A stretch of 64,000 nt of DNA from Chitinophagales bacterium (lineage in GTDB: Bacteria > Bacteroidota > Bacteroidia > Chitinophagales > Saprospiraceae): assembly GCA_013298955.1 (NCBI GenBank), contig JAAFJT010000010.1:1-64000 (forward strand). The letters are read 5' to 3'. The stretch's first letter is position 1; each line of letters begins with the position of its first letter. The position numbers and the translations under genes were made by a program. The notes beneath the pieces were generated by a model. The model saw only the letters and a list, made by a program, of their open reading frames with translations. It was not told the DNA's origin and ran no database searches. This document shows, piece by piece, positions 3,357 to 40,961 of this stretch.

Positions 3357-3540
3357 TTAAAACCAAAAAATTGGCTTAAATCCTTTAAAACGCAAATTTT
3401 CACCTGATAGAATGTTCATTTTATCGGTATTTAGATATTTCACTTCCATTAAAATAGGCGCGGCAATCCATTCAGAACGGCTTTTTTCACTGGCAATCGT
3501 CATTTTAGCAGTTCGTTGAAGGGTAAAAAGCATAGGTTTC
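3357..3540 (-). pseudogene. Fragment of a conserved hypothetical protein
   Basis: The minus frame reads TIASEKSRSEWIAAPILMEV, then KYLNTDKMNILSGENLRF, before running out near 3370. This resembles the internal segment of a Bacteroidota/cyanobacterial hypothetical family recalled as 'SEKARSEFIIAPILLEV...SLFSG'. The expected N-terminus and the C-terminal half are missing. The upstream end of the frame is simply translated palindrome (3536-3564). It looks like leftover debris between recR and the repeat. The family recall is from memory. Confidence 0.45.
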
Positions 3541-3564
3541 GGAAACCTTGAAGGTTTCCGAAAC
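3536..3564. repeat. GTTTCGGAAAC-family palindrome
   Basis: A perfect inverted repeat, GTTTCGGAAACCTT-g-AAGGTTTCCGAAAC, that forms the boundary of the gene fragment next to recR. Relatives occur at 8163-8197, 41746-41777 and 63150-63184. Confidence 0.85.
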
Positions 3565-3611
3565 ATACCCTTTTCTGCGTAACATGAGTTCTTTAAAAAC
3601 AGTCACGCCCT

Positions 3612-3644
3612 AAGTTTCGGAAAATTTCCAATTTTCCGAAACTT
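3612..3644. repeat. AAGTTTCGGAAAATT palindrome
   Basis: A 15-bp perfect stem with a 3-base loop, in the spacer after the QueD-like gene. It is a variant of the same family, with two further copies at 23825-23857 and 23887-23931. Confidence 0.85.
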
Positions 3645-16125: not shown

Positions 16126-17427
16126 ATGCCACTCAATATTCCAGACCCTACTTTTGAGCGAGTCGTCATTGTCGGCGGCGGTTTTGCAGGCTTGACATTG
16201 GCGCGACAACTCGTCGATACGCAATATCAAGTCGTTTTGTTAGACAAAAACAATTATCATCAGTTCCAACCCTTGTTTTACCAAGTGGCGATGGCAGGTT
16301 TGGAGCCGAGTAGCATCGTTTTTCCCTTTCGCAAAGTGTTTCAGAAAAGTGAGAACGTCTTATTTCGGGTCGCGGAAGTGACCGAAATCCTAACCGATGA
16401 AAATGCACTTATCACCGACAAAGGTAGGATGAAATACAATCATTTAGTCATCTGTGTGGGCGCGGACACGAATTATTACGGCAATCAAAAGGTTGCTGAA
16501 TTTGCGATACCGATGAAATCCGTTGCAGAAGCCTTGTTTTTGCGCAATGCGATTTTGGACGATTACGAAAAGGCTTTGTTATGTTCAGATGAAAGTGAAC
16601 GCGAAAGTTTGATGGATATTGTCATTGTTGGCGGCGGTCCGACGGGCGTTGAAGTGGCGGGCGCACTCGCTGAAATGCGTGAAAATGTCATGCCAAAAGA
16701 ATATAAAGAATTGAATTACAAGGGAATTGATATTTATTTAATTCAAAGTGGTGATATGTTATTAAAAGGTATGTCCGATAATGCGGGCATTCAATCCGAG
16801 AAATTTTTGAAAAAAATGGGCGTTATCATCCAAAAAAATAGTCTTGTGACCGATTATGATGGCGAAACAGTGACGCTCAAAGATAATACGAATCAAACGG
16901 TTTCGACGATTCGGAGTAAAAAAGTGATTTGGGCGGCGGGCATTATTGGCAATGCGTTGAATGGAATGCCGAAAACAGCCTATGGTGCTGGTAGAAGATT
17001 AAAAACCAATGAATTACATCAAGTTGAAGGTTTTAATAATATCTATGCGTTGGGCGATATTGCCCTTTTGAACGAAGGCAAATTTGACAAAGGACATCCA
17101 CAAGTGGCGCAAGTGGCGATTCAAATGGCAGCTAATTTAGCTAAAAATTTCAAAAATCGATTGAAAAACAAACCCGAAACGGCTTTTGCTTATCGAGATT
17201 TAGGTTCTATGGCAACGGTGGGAAGACATAAAGCCGTAGTTGATTTGTCTTTTTGGAAATTTCAAGGTGTTTTTGCTTGGTTTGTGTGGTTATTTGTGCA
17301 TTTGTTTGCACTGATTGGATTGAAAAATAAAGTATTTGTTTTTATCAATTGGTTGTGGAGTTACATGACCTATGACCAAGCCTTGCGGCTGATTATTCGA
17401 CCGCGTGTAAAAAAACGAGCCGTGTAA
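16126..17427 (+). CDS. ndh: Type II NADH:quinone oxidoreductase
   Basis: A 433-residue non-proton-pumping NADH dehydrogenase feeding electrons to quinone at the inner face of the membrane. The FAD-binding glycine motif (VVIVGGGFAGLTLARQL) is near residue 12 and the NADH-binding motif (IVIVGGGPTGVEVAGALAEM) near 165. The FAD ribityl-binding YALGDIA lies near 308, and the quinone-site region shows AAGII and QVAIQMA. The last 70 residues are very hydrophobic (FAWFVWLFVHLFALIG, VFVFINWLWSYM), consistent with monotopic membrane attachment. It is divergent from the DUF4340 gene. Confidence 0.93.
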   Translation: MPLNIPDPTFERVVIVGGGFAGLTLARQLVDTQYQVVLLDKNNYHQFQPLFYQVAMAGLEPSSIVFPFRKVFQKSENVLFRVAEVTEILTDENALITDKGRMKYNHLVICVGADTNYYGNQKVAEFAIPMKSVAEALFLRNAILDDYEKALLCSDESERESLMDIVIVGGGPTGVEVAGALAEMRENVMPKEYKELNYKGIDIYLIQSGDMLLKGMSDNAGIQSEKFLKKMGVIIQKNSLVTDYDGETVTLKDNTNQTVSTIRSKKVIWAAGIIGNALNGMPKTAYGAGRRLKTNELHQVEGFNNIYALGDIALLNEGKFDKGHPQVAQVAIQMAANLAKNFKNRLKNKPETAFAYRDLGSMATVGRHKAVVDLSFWKFQGVFAWFVWLFVHLFALIGLKNKVFVFINWLWSYMTYDQALRLIIRPRVKKRAV

Positions 17428-17533
17428 ACGGCAAAAGATTCACGCCAATAAACGATTTTAAAAAAAATCTTCTGTACATGACAATAAGGATGGATGTACG
17501 GATTTCACCACATCATTGTTCGGTAAGAAGGGG

Positions 17534-17550
17534 TCGGTTTCGGAAACCGA
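17534..17550. repeat. Short TCGGTTTCGGAAACCGA palindrome
   Basis: A 7-bp stem with a CGG loop, 107 bases after ndh. It is a minimal relative of the GTTTCGGAAAC family. Confidence 0.5.
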
Positions 17551-17609
17551 TTCTCCCGAAAAACAAAATTAGAGTTGCCGACCGAAATACAACTGCGTAA
17601 CATGAGTAT

Positions 17610-17800
17610 TACCGCGCAACTTAGGCTCATTAACCCAAGTTGCGCGGTAGGCGGCTTGCCGCCAAAAAAAAGGGAGATAAGGGCGTGTGTGTTTTGTTTT
17701 TAAAATTTTGCTTCGCAAAATTTTAAAAACAAAACACACACGCCCTTGAAAAAACGTTTTGCCACCGTAGGCGGCATTACCGCGCAACTTGGGTTAATTA
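17610..17800. repeat. Complex repeat element with a perfect 33-bp hairpin
   Basis: In order: an ACCGCGCAACTT inverted pair (about 17610-17648), a GGCGGCTTGCCGCC mini-hairpin, an A-run and GGGAG. Then comes a perfect 33-bp stem with a TTC loop (17679-17747), an AACGTTTTGCC stretch and a final ACCGCGCAACTTGGGTTAAT. A second element at 24872-25020 has the same parts in opposite orientation but a hairpin of unrelated sequence. The rest of 17428-17835 shows no gene. Confidence 0.8.
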
Positions 17801-17835
17801 TAAAAATTTCAGCGAAAACCAAAAGGATACGTATT

Positions 17836-18777
17836 TTATGACTTAAATATTTTATCTAATAATATTTTTGCCAAATTATATTTGCTTTCATGAGTCCAAC
17901 CTGCGATATGCGGACTTAAAACCGTATTTTTAAAACCATACAAAGTATCGTATAGACGATGTTCTGCTGCCGAAAACGTTTCCACTTTTTCATTTTCAAA
18001 AACATCCAGACACACGCCGCGCAATTTCCCAGTCGTACAGCCTGCAATCACGGCTTTCAAATCTACCACTTTGCCGCGTGATGTATTGATTAAAATAATA
18101 TTTTTAATGCAATGATTTAAAAACGATTCATTGAAAAAATGATGCGTTTCTTGCGTCAAGGGCAAGTGAAAGGAGATAATATCGGCTTGATTTTGAATGG
18201 TTTGTATATCGGTTTCAATACTATTTTTCAAATCATACGGTTGCGTGTAACCTGCGGGCAAATATTTGTCATAAGTCAAAATTTTCATATCAAAACCTAC
18301 CAATTTCCTTGCGAAACGCGCACCAGTATGCCCAAAACCAATGATGCCAACCGTCAAACCTTCGATTTCAAAACCACGCCGCGCTTCACGTTGCCAAATT
18401 TTTTGGCGCACTTGATTGTCTGACGTTACGAGTTGATTCGCCAATGCCAATAACATTCCAATCGCATGTTCCGCAACCGCATTTCGATTCCCTTCAGGCG
18501 AATTGTAAACCGCAATACCTTTTTCCGCCGCATACACACGGTCAATAATCTCCATACCAGAACCCAATCTGCCGACAAATTCGAGTTGAACGGCGCGGTC
18601 GATAAGTTCTTTATGAACAAAAATCTTGCTATTGACGATTAACCCATGATACGCTTGAATGCAGTGAAGTACTTTTGAATGATTTATATTTGGCTGATAA
18701 TCAACAAGATAGCCTTTGTTTTCAAATCCTTCCAACATCAAAGGATGTACATCATCCGTAATTAAAACTTTTTTCAT
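17836..18777 (-). CDS. D-2-hydroxyacid / phosphoglycerate dehydrogenase-like enzyme
   Basis: A 313-residue NAD-dependent D-2-hydroxyacid dehydrogenase. The nucleotide-binding motif VGIIGFGHTGARFARKL is near residue 143. Catalytic-region motifs are LINTSRGKVVDLKAV (Arg), LDVFENEK (Glu) and SPHIAGWT (His). It has no ACT regulatory domain, so it is a short form. SerA (3-phosphoglycerate to 3-phosphohydroxypyruvate) is the closest plausible role and would fit with serC at 61886, but related 2-hydroxyacids cannot be excluded. It is monocistronic, with the hairpin element at 17610-17800 just beyond its stop. Confidence 0.85.
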   Translation of the reverse strand: MKKVLITDDVHPLMLEGFENKGYLVDYQPNINHSKVLHCIQAYHGLIVNSKIFVHKELIDRAVQLEFVGRLGSGMEIIDRVYAAEKGIAVYNSPEGNRNAVAEHAIGMLLALANQLVTSDNQVRQKIWQREARRGFEIEGLTVGIIGFGHTGARFARKLVGFDMKILTYDKYLPAGYTQPYDLKNSIETDIQTIQNQADIISFHLPLTQETHHFFNESFLNHCIKNIILINTSRGKVVDLKAVIAGCTTGKLRGVCLDVFENEKVETFSAAEHRLYDTLYGFKNTVLSPHIAGWTHESKYNLAKILLDKIFKS

Positions 18778-18870
18778 TTTTCAAAAAATAAAGTTATTGA
18801 AAAGACAGGGTCTTCTGCAACTTTTTTAACAACAACGTTTCCGCAGCATACGCTCACCTACTCAGAAAGA

Positions 18871-19554
18871 TTACACAAAGAGTTTGTAAGCAACGAATTG
18901 CATCAAAAATCCTAAGGCAAAACCCGACAAAAGTTCTCGCAAATTGTGTGCATTCAAGACCAGTCGAGACGTGCCGACCAAGCCTGCACTTAAAATCCCG
19001 ATGAGTAATAAAAATGTCATGCTCACATTATACACGCCCAAAAAGGGAATGTGCATGGAAAATGTATTGTAACTAAAAACGCGCATCGTGATGTAAATCA
19101 TCCCTATCAAACCGCCCATTCCTGCGGCATGTAGGCTGATTTTAAAAAATATATTGACTACAAACATAATGAATAGCGAAATCGTCGCGCCCAAAACGCA
19201 CATGCCAAAGGCACGCGGCACAATATTATTGTCTTTGACGCTGAGGAATATCCACAGGTAAAAGATACCTGTGGCGATAAATGGACCAATGCGGTCTTGC
19301 CGATTCGCCATGCTCCAAGTTTCGACCATCCCTAACCGTTTCATTAGGAAAACAGCCGTTACAGGCAAGAAAAAACTCGCCGCAAATACGCCTAATATCA
19401 ATAATTTGCTATCCGTCCATCGATTGACCCCAAAAAGATAGGGATTTACAGCGAGCAAAATCATCAACATATAAGTGATAATCAGCAACGGATGAAATAT
19501 TAAAGAAACGGCTTGTGCCATTCTGCGTATTAAATGATTGACATCTATAATCAT
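18871..19554 (-). CDS. PAP2-like polytopic membrane protein
   Basis: 227 residues with about six hydrophobic helices. The motifs KISLHAAGMGG and SRLVLNAHNLRELLSGFALG correspond in position to the second and third phosphatase motifs of PAP2 lipid phosphatases. The first motif (KxxxxxxRP) is not clear, so catalytic activity is uncertain. In PAP2 enzymes this architecture removes phosphate from undecaprenyl pyrophosphate or phosphatidate. It is predicted to sit in the inner membrane. No close neighbour on its strand. Confidence 0.6.
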   Translation of the reverse strand: MIIDVNHLIRRMAQAVSLIFHPLLIITYMLMILLAVNPYLFGVNRWTDSKLLILGVFAASFFLPVTAVFLMKRLGMVETWSMANRQDRIGPFIATGIFYLWIFLSVKDNNIVPRAFGMCVLGATISLFIMFVVNIFFKISLHAAGMGGLIGMIYITMRVFSYNTFSMHIPFLGVYNVSMTFLLLIGILSAGLVGTSRLVLNAHNLRELLSGFALGFLMQFVAYKLFV

Positions 19555-19822
19555 CGGATTCTCGGATTCTTTCTAAATGGACACTTGATATTAAAATAGA
19601 CTTTTTCGTTTTACAGGCACAAGTTACAGCCTTTTTTGTAATTTGAAAATTTATTTTTTAGGGTAGCCCTGAAATCAAATACAGTTTGTTAAAAAATTAT
19701 ATGTTTTAAAATAAAATTTTAATTTTTTTTGAAAATAAAAATTAAATTTTTGCACCTTTGCGATGTGAAAGATAGCAAGTGCTATCCATTATTGAATCCT
19801 GCCATGCGCTAAACCATTCGAT
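19555..19822. other. Divergent promoter region
   Basis: An AT-rich spacer between divergent genes. CACCTTTG at 19754-19761, one base off the -7 consensus, lies about 62 bases before the plus-strand gene. Nothing else is recognised. Confidence 0.4.
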
Positions 19823-20275
19823 ATGAAAAAATTATTTTTATATATAGGGCTTTTCTGCACGTTTAGTTTGTTACCGACCTTGATTTCGGCGCAAGGTTTG
19901 AAGGAAAATGCTTGGCGATTGTTAGCAAAATTGACCTATTCCAAAAAAATGGACTCCATTTTGGGGTTCAAAGTGGATGTTCCTGTGTATAGCAAGGAAG
20001 TACAGGCGATGGAAGGAAAAGAAATTAGTATTCGCGGGTACATCATTCCGACAGATGGTTATAAAAGTACGAGTGCCTTTATATTATCCGCATTTCCGTA
20101 TAATATGTGCTTTTTTTGTGGCGGTGCGGGACCCGAAACCGTGATTGAAGTGGTTTGTAAATCGCCGATTCCATATTCAGCAGACCCTGTGACGTTAAAA
20201 GGAATGCTGCATTTGAATGGTGGCGATGTCAATACCTTGTTATATACGTTAAAAAACGCTGTAAAAGCGAATTAA
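19823..20275 (+). CDS. Secreted DUF3299-like protein
   Basis: 150 residues with a signal peptide (cleavage near ISAQ, residue 24). The mature part reads like DUF3299 / OB-fold-like exported proteins: GYIIPTDG followed by NMCFFCGGAGPETVIEV, a Cys-x-x-Cys that may bind metal or heme-related cofactor, and a small beta domain. Function is not established. The stop codon is six bases before the nitroreductase start, so the two are almost certainly cotranscribed. Confidence 0.65.
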   Translation: MKKLFLYIGLFCTFSLLPTLISAQGLKENAWRLLAKLTYSKKMDSILGFKVDVPVYSKEVQAMEGKEISIRGYIIPTDGYKSTSAFILSAFPYNMCFFCGGAGPETVIEVVCKSPIPYSADPVTLKGMLHLNGGDVNTLLYTLKNAVKAN

Positions 20276-20281
20276 AAGAAT

Positions 20282-20854
20282 ATGAATCCAGTAGATTTCA
20301 ACGAATTAGTCAAAAATCGTCGGTCGATTTTCACTAAAAGTTATAATAAAAAAAATATTCCTCGCGCCATTGTTGCGCAAATTGTGGAAAATGCGAACTG
20401 GGCTCCCACCCATAAATTGACCGAACCTTGGCGTTTTAAAATATTGAGAGCCAAAGGGTTACAAGATTTTTCAGCTTTTTTAGCCAAGGATTATGTCAAA
20501 CATACGCCTTTGGAAAAACAATCTGAAATCGGGATGAAAAAATTTATTGAAAACCCATTGAATGCCAATACGGTTATCCTTCTTTGTGTGCAGCGCGACC
20601 CTGAAACACGCGTTCCAGAATGGGAGGAAATGGCTGCGGTGGCTGCCGCAGTGCAAAATATGTGGTTAACTTGTACTGCGTATCAAGTTGGTGCTTATTG
20701 GAGTACGCCGGGAGTGATTCATCGGATGGGCGATTTTGTACCGCTTGCAGCAGGTGAAAAATGTATTGGTATTTTTTATATGGGTTATACGGACGCGCCG
20801 CAACCTGCGGGAAAACGCACGCCGATTGAAACTAAAATTCAGTGGATTGAGTAA
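20282..20854 (+). CDS. Nitroreductase-family flavoprotein
   Basis: A 190-residue FMN-dependent oxidoreductase of the nitroreductase fold. The N-terminal RRSIFTKSY binds FMN phosphate. WAPTHKLTEPWRF is the conserved W/P-x-x-x-x-x-P-W segment, and the C-terminal half carries GIFYMGY before a basic end. Members reduce nitro compounds, quinones or enones with NAD(P)H; the substrate here is unknown. It is the second gene of a three-gene run (19823-21516). Confidence 0.88.
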   Translation: MNPVDFNELVKNRRSIFTKSYNKKNIPRAIVAQIVENANWAPTHKLTEPWRFKILRAKGLQDFSAFLAKDYVKHTPLEKQSEIGMKKFIENPLNANTVILLCVQRDPETRVPEWEEMAAVAAAVQNMWLTCTAYQVGAYWSTPGVIHRMGDFVPLAAGEKCIGIFYMGYTDAPQPAGKRTPIETKIQWIE

Positions 20855-20883
20855 GTCGCAGCACCCTTCTCTCTTACTTCTGA

Positions 20884-21516
20884 TTGAAAACATTTTTTTA
20901 TACACAATCCAAACTGTTTCAAAAACAGTTTGGTTCAGCAAAACCATTTGACTCGACCGTGATTTCAAGTTTTTTAGACAAGGTAGAAAGTTATTTTGAG
21001 CTGGAGCAGCCCAAATTTGACAGCTTGGATGAGGCGATTGATACCGTCGTCCCCAAAGTGCAAGGTTATAGCTCCGACCTGCGCGATGAAAACAGCTATT
21101 TGGATAAACGTTGGGTGGAAATCCGTGATACAGATGATTTTCACGAAGCCGTCTTATATATTTTTCGCAAGGGCGGTGAATGCCTTATCTCATTGGAAGG
21201 CAATATCGTGAAAGGGAGTTGGAAATATTTGCAGGAATCGAATACGTGGTTGTGGTCTTCGGGCAAAGGAGAAGAATTATATGATTTGATTTTCCTCAAT
21301 TCCACCTTTTTTATCCTCAAAAAGCATGGTAATAAACAACGACATCGCAAATATTTTGTCTTAGTTACGGAGGGCATGGCGCGGCGATTCAATTGGCGCG
21401 ATATGTTCCTTTCTTTGCACAATCAGTATTTGGATTCTGCCAAATTCCGATTGTGGACGGTGATATTAGTGGCATTTATCGTTTTTATTTTGGTATTGAC
21501 CATTTCGTGGCGATAA
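20884..21516 (+). CDS. Tail-anchored protein of unknown function
   Basis: 210 residues with no recognised family. The first 180 residues are soluble with an alternating beta/alpha pattern (YLDKRWVEIRDTDDFHEAVLYIF, FFILKKHGNKQRHRKYFVLV). The last 20 or so (LWTVILVAFIVFILVLTISW) form a single C-terminal membrane helix, giving a tail-anchored topology with the body in the cytoplasm. It starts 29 bases after the nitroreductase stop and probably shares its transcript. Confidence 0.65.
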   Translation: MKTFFYTQSKLFQKQFGSAKPFDSTVISSFLDKVESYFELEQPKFDSLDEAIDTVVPKVQGYSSDLRDENSYLDKRWVEIRDTDDFHEAVLYIFRKGGECLISLEGNIVKGSWKYLQESNTWLWSSGKGEELYDLIFLNSTFFILKKHGNKQRHRKYFVLVTEGMARRFNWRDMFLSLHNQYLDSAKFRLWTVILVAFIVFILVLTISWR

Positions 21517-22087
21517 AAGATTCGGAGCAAAGCAAATCGATAGACTTTGCGTCGAGGTGGTTTTGCGATACAATTGGAACGCGGATGACACGGATTAGGC
21601 GAATTTTTCACGAATTTTGAACTAAATTTCAAAAAAAGCCGTGCTTACCCGTTCAATCCCTTTCATCCGTGTTCCAATTGTATCCAAAACCACTTCGACG
21701 CAACGTATATTTTGAAAAAAAAAGTATGCCTTTTACCAAACTATAACCCACAAATGAAACAGCCCTACAAAAATCATTTTTTTACTTTTTTTGCGAGAGC
21801 CCTTTTTCCTTAGTTGTTTCGGGCTTAATGCACGATAAGCAACAATTTTAGACCAAACGCCGTTTCAAGGCGTATTGTAACTTAGCGTAAGGATTGGCAA
21901 TTGCCCAAGTCAACAGCCTGACTTGTACATTTTTTCAATTTTTTTAAAAAATTGTAAATAAAAAGTTATTGTTTTCTGCAAAAAATCCAATATTTTGCGC
22001 CCGAATTAACAATTAGCTCGGAATGACCCACTAATTGTACCGAAATTACACACATCTTGTTCACTGAAAAATTAACAAAAAATTTCC
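21517..22087. other. Intergenic region with a long inverted repeat
   Basis: Bases about 21547-21702 form an inverted repeat. The left arm runs through GTCGAGGTGGTTTTGCGATA and AATTGGAACGCGGATGA, and the right arm is its complement ending GACGCAAC. This belongs to the family also at 33764-33907 and 40051-40217. The remaining 380 bases are AT-rich, with no gene and no clear promoter seen. Confidence 0.65.
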
Positions 22088-22789
22088 ATGGGACCTGGAA
22101 CCGTTAGAAATTTGACCTACTTGGCAGTAGGACTTTGCGTTTTTGCATTGATTTATTTGATTAATCAATCCATCAAGAAAAAAGAGCGTGACCGTTTGGC
22201 AGTAGCGGAAGGCAGTATGAGTGGCTCTATGGGCGATTCGGCTTCTACAATGGCAGTGACGACGACTTTAGGCGGTGGTTCTCCTGCAACCAATGAGCAA
22301 TTGGGCGCGGCAGCAGTAGGGGCGGCGGGCAGCAGTGCAGCAGCAGCAGGGTCTTTGGTGAAGCCTGTTGCACCAACAGCAACAACAACAACAACTGTGC
22401 GTTCTGCTCCTGCTTCTACGACGGCAGCAGCAGGAAATCTTGCGGAAGCATCTCCTGTCAACCACTCTAAAACGGGTTTGACGGCAAAAGGCGGCGCGGG
22501 TTCAAGCGGCGCGAAAACAGCGACGGCAACAGAGACTAAAACGTACACGACTGCGGGCGATAAAGGCAATTTTTGGGTTATCGCAGGTAGTTTTAAAGAT
22601 GCGGCAGGTGCAAATGCACGCGTGACGGATTTGAAAAAGAAGGGGTTTGCGTATGCAACGGCTGTCAAAGATGAAACTTCAGGTAATGTGCGGGTTGTAG
22701 CGGCAAAATTCCCTTACAATGGCGGTGCGGAAGCGGAAGTACGCAATTTGAAAGCAAAGCAAGTGGATGCGTTTATTTCCAAACAATAA
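22088..22789 (+). CDS. SPOR-domain membrane protein
   Basis: 233 residues. One N-terminal membrane helix (about 8-27, LTYLAVGLCVFALIYLI), a long Ala/Thr/Gly/Ser-rich linker (about 40-155), and a C-terminal SPOR domain from about 158 (GNFWVIAGSFKDAAGANARV). SPOR domains bind denuded peptidoglycan at division sites. The layout, anchor then flexible linker then SPOR, matches FtsN-like or DamX-like proteins, but the partner is unknown. A large open frame on the opposite strand is only an antisense echo of the repetitive linker. Confidence 0.85.
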   Translation: MGPGTVRNLTYLAVGLCVFALIYLINQSIKKKERDRLAVAEGSMSGSMGDSASTMAVTTTLGGGSPATNEQLGAAAVGAAGSSAAAAGSLVKPVAPTATTTTTVRSAPASTTAAAGNLAEASPVNHSKTGLTAKGGAGSSGAKTATATETKTYTTAGDKGNFWVIAGSFKDAAGANARVTDLKKKGFAYATAVKDETSGNVRVVAAKFPYNGGAEAEVRNLKAKQVDAFISKQ

Positions 22790-22822
22790 TCTTTTGGGTT
22801 GGCAATAAACACCCCAAATGGA

Positions 22823-22962
22823 TGTAAACAAATGAGTCGCCAGGAAATTTATTTCCCGACGACTCATCTTGTTTACACCCGACCTACATCAGTTGGTAAA
22901 ATATACGTTGCGTCGTCCGTGTTCCCATTGTATCGCAAAACCACCCGACGCAACGTATAAGT
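22823..22962. repeat. Two palindromes after the SPOR gene
   Basis: 22823-22877 pairs TGTAAACAAatGAGTCG with its inverse around GGAAATttATTTCC. About 22904-22960 pairs ATACGTTGCGTCG with CGACGCAACGTAT around GTGTTCCCATTGTATCGC. The second shares pieces with the 21547-21702 repeat. Confidence 0.7.
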
Positions 22963-23012
22963 AGGGAATGCACTTTTTTTTCAGTGTTTAGAAAGAAAAT
23001 TAAATTTTTTTA

Positions 23013-23020
23013 TACCTTTG
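23013..23020 (+). promoter_or_regulatory. -7 box deciding the hydrolase start
   Basis: TACCTTTG matches exactly and lies inside the longest possible frame. The true start must therefore be downstream, at 23035 or 23041. Confidence 0.7.
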
Positions 23021-23034
23021 CTCCAAAGAAATTT

Positions 23035-23814
23035 ATGTCAATGAATTACACGCTGAAAGAAGAGGGAAAATTTAAATACATCGAAACTGGCACCAATCAT
23101 CCAGAAACGTTGGTATTATTACATGGTTTAATGGGTGCGTTGAGCAATTTTACCGCAGTTATCAACCATTTTTCCAAGACGCATAACGTAGTCGTGCCGA
23201 TGTTGCCCATCTACGAATTGCCCATTTACAATGTCTCGATTCAAGGTTTTGTTGATTATGTAGTTGATTTTGTCGAATTTAAACATTACGATAAAATACA
23301 TTTATTAGGCAATTCTTTGGGTGGTCACATTGCCTTGCTCTATACGCTTGCGTGTCCGAATCGGGTGCAATCCGTGATTTTGACGGGTAGTTCTGGATTG
23401 TTTGAGAGCGCGATGGGCAACACGTTTCCTCGACGCGGCGATTATGAATACATCGCTAACAAAGCGCGCGAGACGTTTTATGACCCTGCGGTGGCAGACC
23501 AAGCATTGATTGATGATATTTTTTCGACGGTCAATGACCGTTCCAAAGCGATTCGGATTGTAGCCACTTCTAAATCCGCGATTCGACACAATTTGGCAGA
23601 TAAATTACACCAAATCAAAGCACCGACTTTGCTGATTTGGGGTAAAAATGATATTGTTACGCCTCCATTCGTAGGGGAAAAATTCAAGGAATTGATTGAA
23701 AATGCCCAATTAGTTTGGTTTGATAAGTGCGGTCATGCGCCAATGATGGAGCATCCGATTCTTTTCAATCGCCATTTAGAACTTTTTTTGAATGCACATG
23801 CCGTTACAGCGTGA
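23035..23814 (+). CDS. Alpha/beta hydrolase
   Basis: About 259 residues. The oxyanion-hole HGLMG is near residue 30 and the nucleophile elbow GNSLGG near 92. The acid Asp is in WGKNDIVTP and the histidine in CGHAPMMEHP. All catalytic elements are present, so it should be an active esterase, lipase or C-C hydrolase of the MhpC/BioH type; the substrate is not evident. I placed the start after the promoter box at 23013, since the 17 extra residues upstream (MFRKKIKFFYTF...) fall on it. Monocistronic. Confidence 0.87.
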   Translation: MSMNYTLKEEGKFKYIETGTNHPETLVLLHGLMGALSNFTAVINHFSKTHNVVVPMLPIYELPIYNVSIQGFVDYVVDFVEFKHYDKIHLLGNSLGGHIALLYTLACPNRVQSVILTGSSGLFESAMGNTFPRRGDYEYIANKARETFYDPAVADQALIDDIFSTVNDRSKAIRIVATSKSAIRHNLADKLHQIKAPTLLIWGKNDIVTPPFVGEKFKELIENAQLVWFDKCGHAPMMEHPILFNRHLELFLNAHAVTA

Positions 23815-23824
23815 ACCGTTGAAA

Positions 23825-23931
23825 AAGTTTCGGAAAATTTTCAATTTTCCGAAACTTACGGCGTAACCTCCCTTATAGAGAAGCTACGCCATAAGTTTCG
23901 GAAAATTTTCAATTTTCCGAAACTTATGGCG
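23825..23931. repeat. Two tandem copies of the AAGTTTCGG palindrome
   Basis: 23825-23857 and 23887-23931 carry the same 33-base hairpin core, separated by 29 bases. The second has extra CGCCAT/ATGGCG arms. They lie immediately after the hydrolase stop codon. Confidence 0.85.
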
Positions 23932-24013
23932 CAACGCGAAGTGATTACCGTCTTAAATCATTTTTTTAGCCCCATTTGTCGAAAAAGGGGAATGATTTTT
24001 ACAGAATAGTTGT

Positions 24014-24021
24014 TATTTTTG
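24014..24021 (+). promoter_or_regulatory. -7 box for TM2-TPR gene
   Basis: TATTTTTG matches the consensus, 31 bases before ATG 24053. Confidence 0.6.
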
Positions 24022-24052
24022 CATCTAAATCAATCGAAAATCATTCTTTTTT

Positions 24053-24868
24053 ATGAAAAATAAAACAACTGCGGGTTTATTGAGCCTGTTTCTGGGCGTT
24101 TTTGGGGTACAATTTTTTTATTTAGGCAATTTTGGCTTAGGCATCATGGCATTGGCGTTCACGTTTTCGCACCTTGCTAAATGGTCTGTTATGATTGGAC
24201 TGATTCAAGGTGTATTGCTTTTTGCGATGGACAAACTCGAATTTGACCGAAAATACAATTCTAAATGGGGTAAAAATCCTCAAAATCGCAACAATCAAGG
24301 GCATCCGCCGCAACAACAACCCGAATATCCGCCTCAGTTTCCACCAAAACAACAGTATCCACCACAATATCCACCACAATATCCGCCTAAACAGCAGCCG
24401 CAAACGCAACCACAACAGCCGTCTGTGAATGGTTTGACGAGTCAACAACGCGTTCAAATAGAGGCTTTGCGCCAAGACGGTTTGAAAAAGCAAGCTGATT
24501 ATGATTTCAAAGGGGCGATTGATGCTTTTGGAAAAGGCATTGATATAGATGCAAAAGATAATTTATTGCATTTTCACTTGGCTTGTTGTTATTCGTCGGA
24601 GGAAAATACGAATATGGCATTATATCATTTGGAAAAAGCGGTGCAATACGGTTTTAAAGATTTTGAAAAAATTAAGAAAGAAGATACTTTAGCTTTTTTG
24701 CGGATTCAAACAGAGTTTGAATCGTTTGTCAGCAATGGTTATAAACGATTGGAAACCATTGAAAATCAAGGGCTTTTGGAACGATTGAAACATTTAGCGA
24801 GTTTGCGGGAGCGCGGCATGTTGAGCGAGAAAGATTTTGCAGACCAGTCAAAACGATTATTTCAATAA
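24053..24868 (+). CDS. TM2 - Pro/Gln linker - TPR - SHOCT protein
   Basis: 271 residues. A TM2 domain with two membrane helices occupies residues about 1-60 (GLLSLFLGVFGVQFFYLG). A linker rich in PPQYPP repeats spans about 85-125. A TPR-like helical region covers about 135-220 (GAIDAFGKGIDIDAKDNL). The end, LLERLKHLASLRERGMLSEK, fits a SHOCT oligomerisation motif. It is probably an inner-membrane scaffold with a cytoplasmic protein-interaction tail. Function unknown. It has its own promoter; an element with a 34-bp hairpin follows. Confidence 0.75.
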   Translation: MKNKTTAGLLSLFLGVFGVQFFYLGNFGLGIMALAFTFSHLAKWSVMIGLIQGVLLFAMDKLEFDRKYNSKWGKNPQNRNNQGHPPQQQPEYPPQFPPKQQYPPQYPPQYPPKQQPQTQPQQPSVNGLTSQQRVQIEALRQDGLKKQADYDFKGAIDAFGKGIDIDAKDNLLHFHLACCYSSEENTNMALYHLEKAVQYGFKDFEKIKKEDTLAFLRIQTEFESFVSNGYKRLETIENQGLLERLKHLASLRERGMLSEKDFADQSKRLFQ

Positions 24869-24871
24869 TTA

Positions 24872-25020
24872 ACCTAAGTTGCGCGGTAAAACCGTTTTGG
24901 GCAGAAAAAGACTTTCTGGGGACGGGTGTTTGTTGTTTTGTTGAATGGGGCTTTGCCCCATTCAACAAAACAACAAACACCCGTCCCCGTCTCCCTCTTT
25001 TCGGCAGCTTTGCCGCCTAA
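24872..25020. repeat. Complex repeat element with a perfect 34-bp hairpin
   Basis: Begins ACCTAAGTTGCGCGGTAAAA, then CCGTTTTGGGC. Then comes a perfect 34-bp stem with a TTT loop (24918-24988), CTCCC, and a CGGCAGCTTTGCCGCC mini-hairpin. The order is that of 17610-17800 read on the other strand, but the hairpin sequence is entirely different. Confidence 0.8.
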
Positions 25021-25093
25021 ACGCTCCCTCTCCTTTTTCTGTTGGCATGACCCAAAATAAAACATAAATGGCTTAAAGCATTAAACTAAGTCG

Positions 25094-25101
25094 TATATTT
25101 G
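25094..25101 (+). promoter_or_regulatory. -7 box for fibronectin-type cargo gene
   Basis: TATATTTG, an exact match 80 bases before ATG 25181. Confidence 0.6.
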
Positions 25102-25180
25102 CAAGTCTAATTCAAATAGTCTATACAGCCTTCACTGCCTAATCCATTCAAATTATTTTTTCATAATCCTATTTTTCTAC

Positions 25181-27187
25181 ATGAAAAAATTGTTCTTTTT
25201 AATTGCTTTGATATTAAGCATTTCGATTCCAATTTTACAAGCACAAGTAGCTTGCGCAACGCCTCAAAATTTGGCAGCGCATCCCCGCGATAGTGTGGCA
25301 TTATTGTATTGGGCAGGCACAGCAACTTCCTATCAAGTGCAATATCGGGCAGCAGATGCGGCAACGTTTACGACTGTAACCGTGACCACTCCGAATGCGA
25401 CGTTGACAGGATTATTGCCATGCCGGTATTACGAATTTAAAGTAAAAGCCATTTGTGCCAACACATTTAGCGAATTTAGTGGCGTAACTCGTTTTAAAAC
25501 AACGGGTTGTGCGGGTACAGCGACTTGTGGTGTACCGCGCATTAGTGCATTGAGCGTTAGCGGAACGGTTGTAAGTGTTACTTGGGTAAGCACGAGTGCG
25601 GCAACTTATCAATTGCGCTACAAAAAAGTAGCGGATACCAGTTGGACGACCCTTAATGCTGCCTTGCCGACCGTACAAATTGGGAATTTGGCTGCCTGCA
25701 CCGCTTATCAATTCCAAGTCAGAAGCGTTTGCACGGGCAATGTATATAGTGAGTACAGTGTTTCAAGTTCGATTGCCACAGCAGGTTGCACCCCTGTTTC
25801 GTATTGTATGGCACCGCGCCGATTGAGTTTCACAACGACCCAGAACGTAGCAGTTTTGCGGTGGGATTCTACGGGCGCGGCTTCGTATGATGTGCAATGG
25901 ATGGCTCCCCGCGATTCTGCTTGGCGGACGGTGCGGGCAACTACGAATCGATTAGAATTGGGCAGTTTGACGGCTTGCACGATTTATCAATTTAGGGTTC
26001 GGGCAAACTGTGCTGCAAACAATGTGGCGTATAGTGCCGTCGCTCGTTTTGCTACAACAGGTTGTGTATCAACCATTTGTGCCGCGCCAACCAATGTACT
26101 TATATCTGCAATGGACACGTTGGCTGTCGTTACTTGGAATGCGAATGGGGCAACTTCTTTCCGTGTGCAATATAAATCGACGACGGATAGCCTTTTTACA
26201 ACGATTACGACGACCAGCAATTTAGTGACCTTGACTCATTTATTGCGCTGTAAAGCGTATCAAGTGAAAGTGCAAGCCATTTGCAGCAATAATATTGCAA
26301 GTGCGTACACAGAACCAATTCGTTTTGAAACACGCGGTTGCATCGCACCGTCCAATGCCTGTGCGATGCCGTTGAATGTGACTCCGTATTTGGTGGATTC
26401 TTTGAATGCAGTGATTCGATGGAATCATATGGCAAATACTGCTTATGTGGTTGAATATTATGCCACAGACGCGCCCAATGCCATCACAACCCGAACGACT
26501 TCGGATACATTAGTTCGTTTGACAGGTTTGACGCGTTGTAAAACCTATGTTTTGAGGGTGCGCCGTGCTTGTGCAAGCAACTTATTTAGCGAATGGGCAA
26601 CCACTCGTTTTACGACAACAGGTTGTGTATCAATCGTTTGTACAACTCCTACGCAAGTGACATACGACCGCATTTTGGACAGTTTGACATGGCAATCAAC
26701 AGGTTATACAACCTTGATTCGATGGAGATTGGCAGGCACAGCAGGTTGGGCATATGATTCGATAGGGCGTTTATCGCGCTATGGTTTTGGACAATCGTTA
26801 CAAGCATGCCAAACTTATACGTGTCAAGTGCAAAATATTTGTCCAACTGGATTCAGTGATTGGAGTGCGGAACTCGTATTCCGTGCTCGCGGCGCGAACT
26901 GTTTGGATGACGGTGGCGTTCAAATTAGAGATTTTGGCATTTATCCGAATCCGGGGAAGGATGTCGTGCAAGTGATGTACAAATTAGAACAAATAGCAAT
27001 GTCGGTTCGGTTGGATTTGGTTGATTTACAAGGCAGAATCATTCATCAATTGGATGGTGGTCAACAAGGTATAGGTAATTATATTCAATCATTTGAAGGA
27101 TTGGAAACGTTGAACACAGGGGTCTATCTAATTGCCTTGCGCGTCGATGGCAAAGTGGCTATGACTCAAAAATGGGTAAAAGAATAA
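25181..27187 (+). CDS. Secreted fibronectin type III repeat protein, T9SS cargo
   Basis: 668 residues. A signal peptide ends near LQAQ (residue 22). Six repeats of about 90 residues follow. Each has the fibronectin type III pattern (a W-containing strand, Y-x-V-Q-Y, then L-x-x-C-x-x-Y-x-F-x-V) and begins with a cysteine-containing CxxP-like segment. Two cysteines recur per repeat and may form disulfides. The last 80 residues (FGIYPNPGKDVVQVMY to QKWVKE) are a type IX sorting domain. It is therefore predicted to be a surface adhesin or extracellular scaffold. It is closed by the terminator at 27215-27246. Confidence 0.87.
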   Translation: MKKLFFLIALILSISIPILQAQVACATPQNLAAHPRDSVALLYWAGTATSYQVQYRAADAATFTTVTVTTPNATLTGLLPCRYYEFKVKAICANTFSEFSGVTRFKTTGCAGTATCGVPRISALSVSGTVVSVTWVSTSAATYQLRYKKVADTSWTTLNAALPTVQIGNLAACTAYQFQVRSVCTGNVYSEYSVSSSIATAGCTPVSYCMAPRRLSFTTTQNVAVLRWDSTGAASYDVQWMAPRDSAWRTVRATTNRLELGSLTACTIYQFRVRANCAANNVAYSAVARFATTGCVSTICAAPTNVLISAMDTLAVVTWNANGATSFRVQYKSTTDSLFTTITTTSNLVTLTHLLRCKAYQVKVQAICSNNIASAYTEPIRFETRGCIAPSNACAMPLNVTPYLVDSLNAVIRWNHMANTAYVVEYYATDAPNAITTRTTSDTLVRLTGLTRCKTYVLRVRRACASNLFSEWATTRFTTTGCVSIVCTTPTQVTYDRILDSLTWQSTGYTTLIRWRLAGTAGWAYDSIGRLSRYGFGQSLQACQTYTCQVQNICPTGFSDWSAELVFRARGANCLDDGGVQIRDFGIYPNPGKDVVQVMYKLEQIAMSVRLDLVDLQGRIIHQLDGGQQGIGNYIQSFEGLETLNTGVYLIALRVDGKVAMTQKWVKE

Positions 27188-33684: not shown

Positions 33685-33989
33685 GGAAAATTTTTGAAAT
33701 AGGATGCTTATAATTTTAAGGATTGGAAGGATTTTTTTGAATTCTATACTTTACGTCGGGTGTTTTTGGGATACAATGGGAACGCGGATGACGCGGATTG
33801 GGCGGATTTTCACGGATTTTTTTGATTTTGCTTGCTTTTAAAGTTGAATTTAAAAAAAATCCGTGAAAATCCGCCCAATCCGTGTCATCCGCGTTCCCAT
33901 TGTATCGCAAAAGTATTGTGTGCGAAGCATAGAACTCAAAAAATCCTTCCAATCCTTGAAATCATAAGCATCCTATTTCAAAAATTTCC
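33685..33989. repeat. Nested inverted repeat of about 305 bases
   Basis: The outer arms run GGAAAATTTTTGAAATAGGA, then TGCTTA and AAGGATTGGAAGGATTTTTT, and return inverted at 33933-33989. The inner arms (33764-33817 and 33857-33907) carry GATACAATGGGAACGCGGAT followed by ACGCGGATTGGGCGGATT. This is a palindrome inside a palindrome, with no coding capacity. Confidence 0.8.
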
Positions 33990-34007
33990 CGACTCCGAAC
34001 CATTTAA

Positions 34008-39937: not shown

Positions 39938-39961
39938 TTTTTATCTTTTTGTAATTTTTTC

Positions 39962-40280
39962 AACACATAGGGCATATAGATTCCATAGGAAACATAGGGG
40001 CAATCTTTATAGGTGTACTTCCAGCAATTTCCGCTTTGAAAAAGGGTCGATACAATTGGAACGCGGATGACGCGGATTAGGCGGATTTTCACGGATTTTT
40101 TTCGATTCAATTGAAATTTTATTTTTGAATAAGCATAAAAAATTAAATAAAATTTTGTATAAAATAAAAAATCCGTGAAAATCCGCCCAATCCGCGTCAT
40201 CCGCGTTCCAATTGTATCAACTTTTTCCAAAGCGGAAATTGCGCCTATGTGCCCTATGAAATCTATATGTCCTATGTGTT
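39962..40280. repeat. Nested inverted repeat of about 320 bases
   Basis: The outer arms are built of AACACATAGGGCATATAGAT-type repeats plus TTTCCGCTTTG. The inner arms (40051-40104 and about 40168-40217) carry GATACAATTGGAACGCGGAT followed by GACGCGGATTAGG. The inner part is the family seen at 33764-33907 and 21569-21684. The minus frame reported across it is not a gene. Confidence 0.8.
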
Positions 40281-40288
40281 ATAAAATT

Positions 40289-40714
40289 TTAATGTGTCAT
40301 TGCCGGTACTAAGGTAGCAGTTAATGTAATTTCCGTTTTCAATAATTTTGAAATCGGACAATTGGTTTTAGCATCTTCCGCCGCTTTTGCAAATTGTTCT
40401 GCCGAAATTGTAGGAACAGTTGCCTTTACCGTGAGGTGAATATTCGGAATTTCGCCATTCAAAAAAGTCACAACGGACTTTGCATCTATATGATCCGCCG
40501 TGAAACCTGCTTCGTTTAACACAAAACTCAATTTCATGCTGAAACAACCTGCATGTGCTGCGGCAATCAATTCTTCAGGATTCGTACCTTTGCCATCTGC
40601 AAAACGAGCGTTGAACGAGTTTGCAACATTGTGTAAAACACCGCTTTGCGTCGAAATGGTTCCTTTGCCTTCTTTGCCTGTGCCTTTCCATTGGGCAGTC
40701 GCGCTTCTTTTCAT
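40289..40714 (-). CDS. OsmC-family peroxiredoxin
   Basis: 141 residues. The two redox cysteines are in AAAHAGCFSM (about 57) and NCPISKLL (about 119), the positions found in OsmC/Ohr thiol peroxidases that reduce organic hydroperoxides. The arrangement (KGTISTQSGVL, NPEELIAAAHAGC) is closer to OsmC than to Ohr. Cytoplasmic. Its own transcription unit; a nested repeat lies beyond the stop. Confidence 0.92.
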   Translation of the reverse strand: MKRSATAQWKGTGKEGKGTISTQSGVLHNVANSFNARFADGKGTNPEELIAAAHAGCFSMKLSFVLNEAGFTADHIDAKSVVTFLNGEIPNIHLTVKATVPTISAEQFAKAAEDAKTNCPISKLLKTEITLTATLVPAMTH

Positions 40715-40794: not shown

Positions 40795-40961
40795 CAACAT
40801 AGGGAACATCGGTTTCATAGGAGACATAGAGGCATTCTTTATTTGATTTGTTCATTTGGGGATTTAAACCTTAAAAATACCATAGATTGAACCGAAAAAA
40901 CAAAGAATAGCTATAAAAATGAACCCTATGTGTCCTATGAACCCTATGTTCCCTATGTGTT
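40795..40961. repeat. CATAGGGAACATAGG inverted repeat
   Basis: The left arm (ACATAGGGAACATCGGTTTC, ATAGGAGACATAG) and right arm (CTATGTGTCCTATGAACC, CTATGTTCCCTATGTGTT) pair with mismatches around an AT-rich centre. The motif is shared with the outer arms at 39962-40280 and with 57711-57862. The rest of the spacer to 41085 shows no gene. Confidence 0.7.

Follow-up and report, generated by a model that had tools for sequence, protein, structure and literature searches.

A hairpin-bearing element in the window

The window analysed here, 64,000 nucleotides at the start of contig JAAFJT010000010.1 of a Chitinophagales bacterium, encodes proteins of which two of the five scanned had T9SS sorting domains, a feature indicative of Bacteroidota. 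A 162-bp non-autonomous element with the 17-bp terminal inverted repeats ACCYAAGTTGCGCGGTA was located at 17633-17794 (Table 1). Its parts follow one another in the order of left repeat, mini-hairpin (GGCGGC..GCCGCC), A-run with GGGAG and long hairpin, after which come a T-rich spacer, a second mini-hairpin and the right repeat. An earlier note on this DNA, made from the letters alone, had drawn the element from 17610 to 17800; the hairpin element is real, and its bounds are corrected here, the segment 17610-17622 being an extra solo end that is probably a remnant of another copy's end. The left flank, TCATTA, is a probable decayed 6-bp target duplication. A second copy, extending in minus orientation from 24872 to about 25017, shows the same order of parts with one end only. 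The flanking modules do recur there in opposite orientation, and both window copies carry perfect long hairpins with a 3-nt loop, as the note had claimed. It had also held that the two central hairpins differ completely in sequence, which was not borne out: of 34 aligned positions in their 5' arms, 21 are identical, and the stems are diverged relatives, not unrelated. The transposon nature of the element, with its terminal repeats and target duplications, had been missed.

Table 1 Features of the two element copies in the window.
Feature	Position	Strand	Remarks
Solo terminal-repeat core	17610..17622	-	Exact match to AAGTTGCGCGGTA
Left flank TCATTA	17627..17632	.	5/6 identical with right flank TAATTA; family consensus TAWWTA
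Left terminal inverted repeat ACCCAAGTTGCGCGGTA	17633..17649	+	
Left GC-rich mini-hairpin GGCGGC-TT-GCCGCC	17650..17663	+	From sequence; helix 1 of covariation analysis
A-run and GGGAG spacer	17664..17677	+	Common to the elements of the sister species
Central perfect hairpin, 33-bp arms	17679..17747	+	Arms 17679-17711 and 17715-17747, 33 bp each; 3-nt loop TTC 17712-17714; helix 2
Right mini-hairpin GCCACC-GTA-GGCGGC, one imperfect pair	17761..17775	+	From sequence; helix 3
Right terminal inverted repeat	17778..17794	-	
Right flank TAATTA	17795..17800	.	Probable target duplication
Second copy, sole intact terminal repeat ACCTAAGTTGCGCGGTA	24872..24888	+	
Second copy (subfamily B), central perfect hairpin, 34-bp arms	24918..24988	-	Arms 24918-24951 and 24955-24988, 34 bp each; 3-nt loop 24952-24954
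Second copy, GGGAG spacer and mini-hairpin	24989..25017	-	Terminal repeat beyond it lost

Other repeats were also observed in the window. A nearly perfect inverted repeat at 33764-33912 (60-nt arms, 97%) lies within a second, outer pair of arms (53 nt, 94%, 33685-33990) and looks like a further foldback element. Long inverted repeats were seen at 40041-40226, 39953-40289 and 40797-40958, of which the last two are built of ACATAGGG / CCTATGT-like units and probably represent other repeat families. Short palindromes of the AAGTTTCGGAAA..TTTCCGAAACTT type recur at 23825-23925 and 3536-3642 in the window and, with 16-bp perfect arms, at loci L010 and L024; palindromes at L054 and L058, also with 16-bp perfect arms, have another sequence.

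The element belongs to a multi-copy MITE family

The terminal core AAGTTGCGCGGTA had 105 matches with at most one mismatch in the 4.68-Mb assembly, as compared with 32 for the reversed control pattern, and 63 among the matches listed were exact; these numbers count ends, not copies. Within the window alone, the core was unremarkable at two mismatches (five matches, equalled in 4 of 100 shuffles). In the window and 60 further stretches of the assembly, 37 copies were found to have both ends at no more than three mismatches. An exact 6-bp target duplication flanked 15 of these 37 copies (mispaired-flank control: mean 1.0, maximum 4), and the consensus of the duplications of two-ended copies was TAWWTA. 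When the context of 38 copies was analysed with a simple ORF finder (at least 90 aa), 30 lay between ORFs, one overlapped an ORF and seven were unplaced. Convergent genes flanked 14 of the 30 placed copies, as compared with 7 of the window's 47 gaps (p 0.004 by Fisher's test), an enrichment that can equally be explained by purifying selection. Dozens of copies, common ends formed by terminal inverted repeats, target site duplications, a short non-coding sequence and a mainly intergenic position are the properties of a MITE, and the family is a new one of this kind, in which template switching is recorded with unusual clarity, as described below.

The same ends also enclose a third type of interior, found at L039 (622-786), where the whole element is palindromic with 81-bp perfect arms. 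In the related copies at L029, L034, L021 and L028, one arm carries a heterologous block, which would fit a homogenisation of L039. At L041 (686-1124, contig C126), three tandem copies in the same orientation were observed about 142 bp apart, only one of which has both terminal repeats.

The terminal repeat at up to one mismatch was absent from all 59 relatives searched, and its exact form was absent from viral contigs; 12 single exact matches in named genomes were taken as chance. An empty orthologous site was not found, the best sister-species alignment covering the left-hand gene only.

Related interiors are found in other genomes

The interior of the element had at least 40 BLAST places in the sister species (G001), 16 of them with E <= 0.001, and all 40 listed places begin at query position 18, just inside the terminal repeat. 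The element ends in this species are CAATASTTCGGTAATT. Among its 33 two-ended copies, exact duplications of 5 bp were found in 19 (control mean 0.16, maximum 2) and of 6 bp in four (control mean 0.00, maximum 0). Fifteen of the 33 copies were shorter than 150 bp, and 10 of these 15 had an exact duplication; one 140-bp form was present at four places (L153, L167, L170 and L181). The short copies among those listed have no intact long hairpin, which suggests that movement may not require the hairpin, although a duplication would also survive a deletion after insertion.

A covariance model of the interior had matches in 6 of 150 genomes of the family, including the window's own genome (G000) and the sister species, with two of the six at chance level: the single matches in G060 and G154 (E about 0.009 each) were dropped. 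The four matches in G086 were not counted as a MITE, as terminal repeats were not apparent by eye. In G114, which belongs to another genus, the three-hairpin interior lies within TTCTACTTTGGCACTTTA ends, and an exact 4-bp duplication (TTAG, TTAA or CTAA) was present in five of nine distinct paired copies, a count without a shuffled control; two of these five contain the long hairpin. By eye, two additional types of ends (L204/L207 and L230) were seen to enclose the interior in G114 as well. A 196-bp element with G114 ends and a non-hairpin interior was observed at L217 (1501-1696, G114:C52) and may have arisen by deletion from a parent insertion sequence.

The duplication length varied with the host, being 6 bp in G000, mostly 5 bp in G001 and 4 bp in G114. 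We tentatively consider, as a possibility that we rate below even, that the three-hairpin interior (mini-hairpin, A/G spacer, long perfect hairpin and mini-hairpin) may be a portable cassette set inside the ends of several unrelated transposons of this bacterial family. This reading would draw on two likenesses, the architecture and a short module common to the elements (GGCGGC..GCCGCC plus A/G spacer), and these may have arisen by convergence. If it were true, the hairpin cassette would be selected in its own right, not as a by-product of one transposon, with a role such as that of a transcription insulator or of an RNase target making insertions tolerable.

An IS982-type transposase is a likely mover

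The element itself encodes no transposase, and a transposase with these ends was not found in G000, where PF01609 (DDE_Tnp_1), PF13358 and PF13546 had no matches. PF01609 had three matches in G001 and six in G114, and PF13546 had none in G001 and three in G114. One of the G001 loci, L237, is an insertion sequence that encodes a 280-aa IS982 transposase (NF033520, 181 bits, cut-off 130), and ATTCAAGTTGCTAGTTA, found within its perfect inverted ends, matches the 17-bp terminal repeat in register at 12 of 17 positions, CAAGTTGC included. This match has a binomial p of 1e-4, uncorrected for the number of transposase loci (12) and of end types (5) that were compared. End matches with 4-5 mismatches were common at the 12 loci, and a coincidence with the insertion sequence's own inverted ends was seen for L237 only; among the PF01609 loci of G001 and G114, L237 alone had ends like those of the element. 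No confirmed relative of the IS982 protein was found in viral contigs.

TAATTA adjoins both ends of L237, as the target consensus of the element would predict. This hexamer is its own reverse complement and may be part of a longer inverted repeat rather than a target duplication; if it is counted as flank, L237 starts with AT, not AC. The ends of IS982 elements mostly begin with AC, and the length of their direct repeats is variable (PMC7335449). The ends of the element likewise begin with AC, and they agree in part (AC, T9 and T16) with the end consensus given there, 5'-AC(N)6T(N)5TT-3' (PMC7335449). Given the similar ends (12/17) of the IS982 in the sister species, an IS982-type transposase is, as judged from sequence, the best candidate and a likely, though not demonstrated, mover. 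Spread of the element would have depended on a transposase supplied in trans, most likely one of the IS982 family.

The two arms of each hairpin have changed together

Central hairpins were collected by a regular expression that missed some copies (such as L011, L031 and L059); 69 were obtained, 7 unrelated or duplicate rows were removed, and the remaining 62 were oriented by their flanks. One lacked full arms, leaving 61. The arms were perfect over 32 nt in 33 of the 61 full hairpins and imperfect in 28. The earlier note had proposed that structure is conserved while sequence is not, and this holds across subfamilies and species, with the qualification that nearly half of the hairpins (28/61) are imperfect. 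It had named imperfect or absent hairpins and identical stems as observations against its reading, and these are borne out in part, since hairpin-less copies exist and some copies share identical stems; yet both arms are affected in many of the differing stems.

In each of the four subfamilies of the 61 hairpins, the two arms of the same copy were more alike than arms shuffled among copies (within-copy edits versus shuffled mean: A, 18 vs 56.3; B, 37 vs 91.8; G1a, 4 vs 11.0; G1b, 11 vs 59.8). The observed likeness was reached in 0 of 20,000 shuffles in three subfamilies and in 0.3% in G1a; the copies have common descent, a few of the hairpins that lie at contig ends in G001 may be a single physical copy, and after deduplication the result stands, G1a being weakest at 1.9%.

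We also aligned the stems, as the note had proposed for detecting compensatory change. In the central helix of 30 copies, both sides had changed in 25 of 34 pairs and 98.2% of the cells were paired, a percentage inflated by the choice of these 30 of the 62 sequences for their intact hairpins. The helix had 251 cells with both-side changes (shuffled mean 72.9, 0 of 500 shuffles as high), 5 with one-side changes and 18 unpaired. For the whole structure, paired cells, both-side cells and the covariation score all exceeded 500 of 500 shuffles, and when the partners were slid by 1-3 columns, pairing fell to 42-50%, as compared with 97.9% in register. Two other measures barely rose above shuffling, as is to be expected when shuffling changes only how the arms are dealt out: 25 pairs had changed on both sides (22.9 in shuffles, with 57 of 500 reaching the observed number), and 56 pair types were present (51.7 in shuffles, reached in 27 of 500). 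The two mini-hairpins had no both-side change in the 30-sequence alignment.

Arm recopying by template switching and its alternatives

Among the 62 hairpins, we counted 50 distinct edits present in both arms, 34 of them private to one copy, and 53 distinct edits in one arm, although some near-loop edits (L038, L061 and L062) are alignment artefacts and the edits are not independent events. The 53 one-arm edits that remain indicate that correction is far from instantaneous. Mirrored indels in both arms were found at L045, L064, L134, L137, L142 and L183. Both loop orientations relative to the flanks were present in all four subfamilies: in element orientation, the loops were TTC (10), GAA (5) and others (4) in A; AAA (7), TTT (7) and others (2) in B; TGC (9) and GCA (4) in G1a; and GCA (6), TGC (6) and others (2) in G1b. 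The loops of G114 also occur in both orientations (AAA in L186 and TTT in L192). A study on yeast inverted repeats attributes homogenised arms and an inverted spacer to template switching (PMC8604942), and both were observed here, as within-copy arm likeness in all four subfamilies and as inversion of the loop. From these footprints, which are plainly present, we infer the enzymology. A mutation would strike one arm of the central hairpin; DNA synthesis would sometimes switch template at the palindrome and recopy one arm from the other, so that the mutation would be erased or spread to both arms; a switch running through the hairpin tip would invert the 3-nt loop; and the corrected versions would then be multiplied by transposition. 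We are confident of the explanation as a whole, that of a MITE moved in trans whose hairpin is kept perfect by template-switch arm recopying.

When both sides of a hairpin pair change in a compensatory way, the usual interpretation is selection on an RNA: transcripts must fold, and substitutions are chosen pair by pair. The strong covariation and the predicted stability of the fold (-99 kcal/mol for the plus strand) would suit this reading, which we regard as unlikely. The central helix has only 5 one-side cells against 251 both-side cells, the mini-hairpins are without both-side change, hairpin-less copies persist, and symmetric indels and inverted loops would be unexpected if pairs were selected one at a time. 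Of the 26 one-arm mismatches in copies with at most three differences, 15 are A.C and 6 are G.T on the plus strand, and plus-strand RNA is therefore unsupported and minus-strand RNA possible, as the same mismatches would read 15 G.U vs 6 A.C on the minus strand (p 0.08), a lean that falls to p 0.17 (13 vs 6) after removal of repeats. No Rfam family reached its threshold: in 17300-25300 there were 37 matches at E <= 1, mostly to microRNA-precursor models, and none over the gathering score. A function as intrinsic terminators was also considered and found unconvincing (2 sites, one at the right mini-hairpin, vs 0.8 in shuffles, over 551 bases). On the strength of both-arm changes private to single copies, of indels mirrored between the arms and of inverted loops, arm recopying at the DNA level is favoured over selection on RNA, and nothing observed here requires an RNA function. 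The earlier note had invoked selection or gene conversion; a gene-conversion-like process, arm-templated DNA recopying, is supported, and selection on a plus-strand RNA gained no positive support. A mobile hairpin with no known function can yield the same covariation signal as a selected RNA, and covariation alone is thus no proof of RNA function.

Ordinary ectopic gene conversion, by which copies would correct each other without arm-to-arm copying, could draw on the many similar copies and the identical stems; we consider it very unlikely, as no donor is known for the 34 of 50 distinct both-arm edits that are private to one of the 62 copies, and conversion by itself creates no symmetric changes and does not invert the loop alone. 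The perfection and the loop flips might also be artefacts of assembling palindromes. The assemblies are drafts able to mishandle palindromes, arms of 33-35 bp exceed small k-mers, and contigs end inside copies, many of them in G001; in G000, contigs C18 (L018 1-71) and C112 (L032 660-814) end in what is seemingly one copy, their right flanks being identical, a sign that the hairpin may interrupt the assembly. Against this, imperfect copies are kept in the same assemblies (28/61), private variants stand on both arms, and the same pattern is found in G001 and G114, which makes an artefact highly improbable as the source of the pattern.

Comparison with known systems

A MITE of Cardinium, which also belongs to the Bacteroidota, offers a comparison. 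MITECca01 is derived from IS982 and carries IS982 inverted repeats, and like the present element it is short (about 240 bp), non-coding and multi-copy; its parent insertion sequence is described as intact in the same genome, whereas that of the element was not found in G000 (PMC9769881). The words 'hairpin' and 'secondary structure' do not appear in its text (PMC9769881), and the available part describes no central perfect hairpin or arm covariation, unlike what is seen here. Other prokaryotic MITEs, such as QMITE2, share with the element AT-rich intergenic targets, terminal repeats, target duplications and very stable stem-loops; as far as the available part of that account extends, they differ in that no perfect stems with changing sequence and no loop inversion are reported (PMC10969869). 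In the parts of the open-access literature covered, no MITE with template-switched or covarying hairpin arms was recognised.

The cases closest in mechanism are RNA hairpins (PMC8794818) and yeast inverted repeats (PMC8604942), for which the available parts describe the same arm homogenisation and inversion of the loop or spacer. Those cases are genes compared across a tree, whereas the element presents one hairpin in many genomic copies. In RNA genes, compensatory change with loop inversion is called 'extremely rare' in the part of that study available (PMC8794818), whereas both loop orientations are common in the element. With dozens of palindrome copies per genome, the family amounts to a natural mutation-accumulation experiment on bacterial template switching, and counts across copies can give the proportion of mutations that were corrected to those that were not. 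The element naturally preserves the traces of a slip in DNA copying that is seldom easy to observe.
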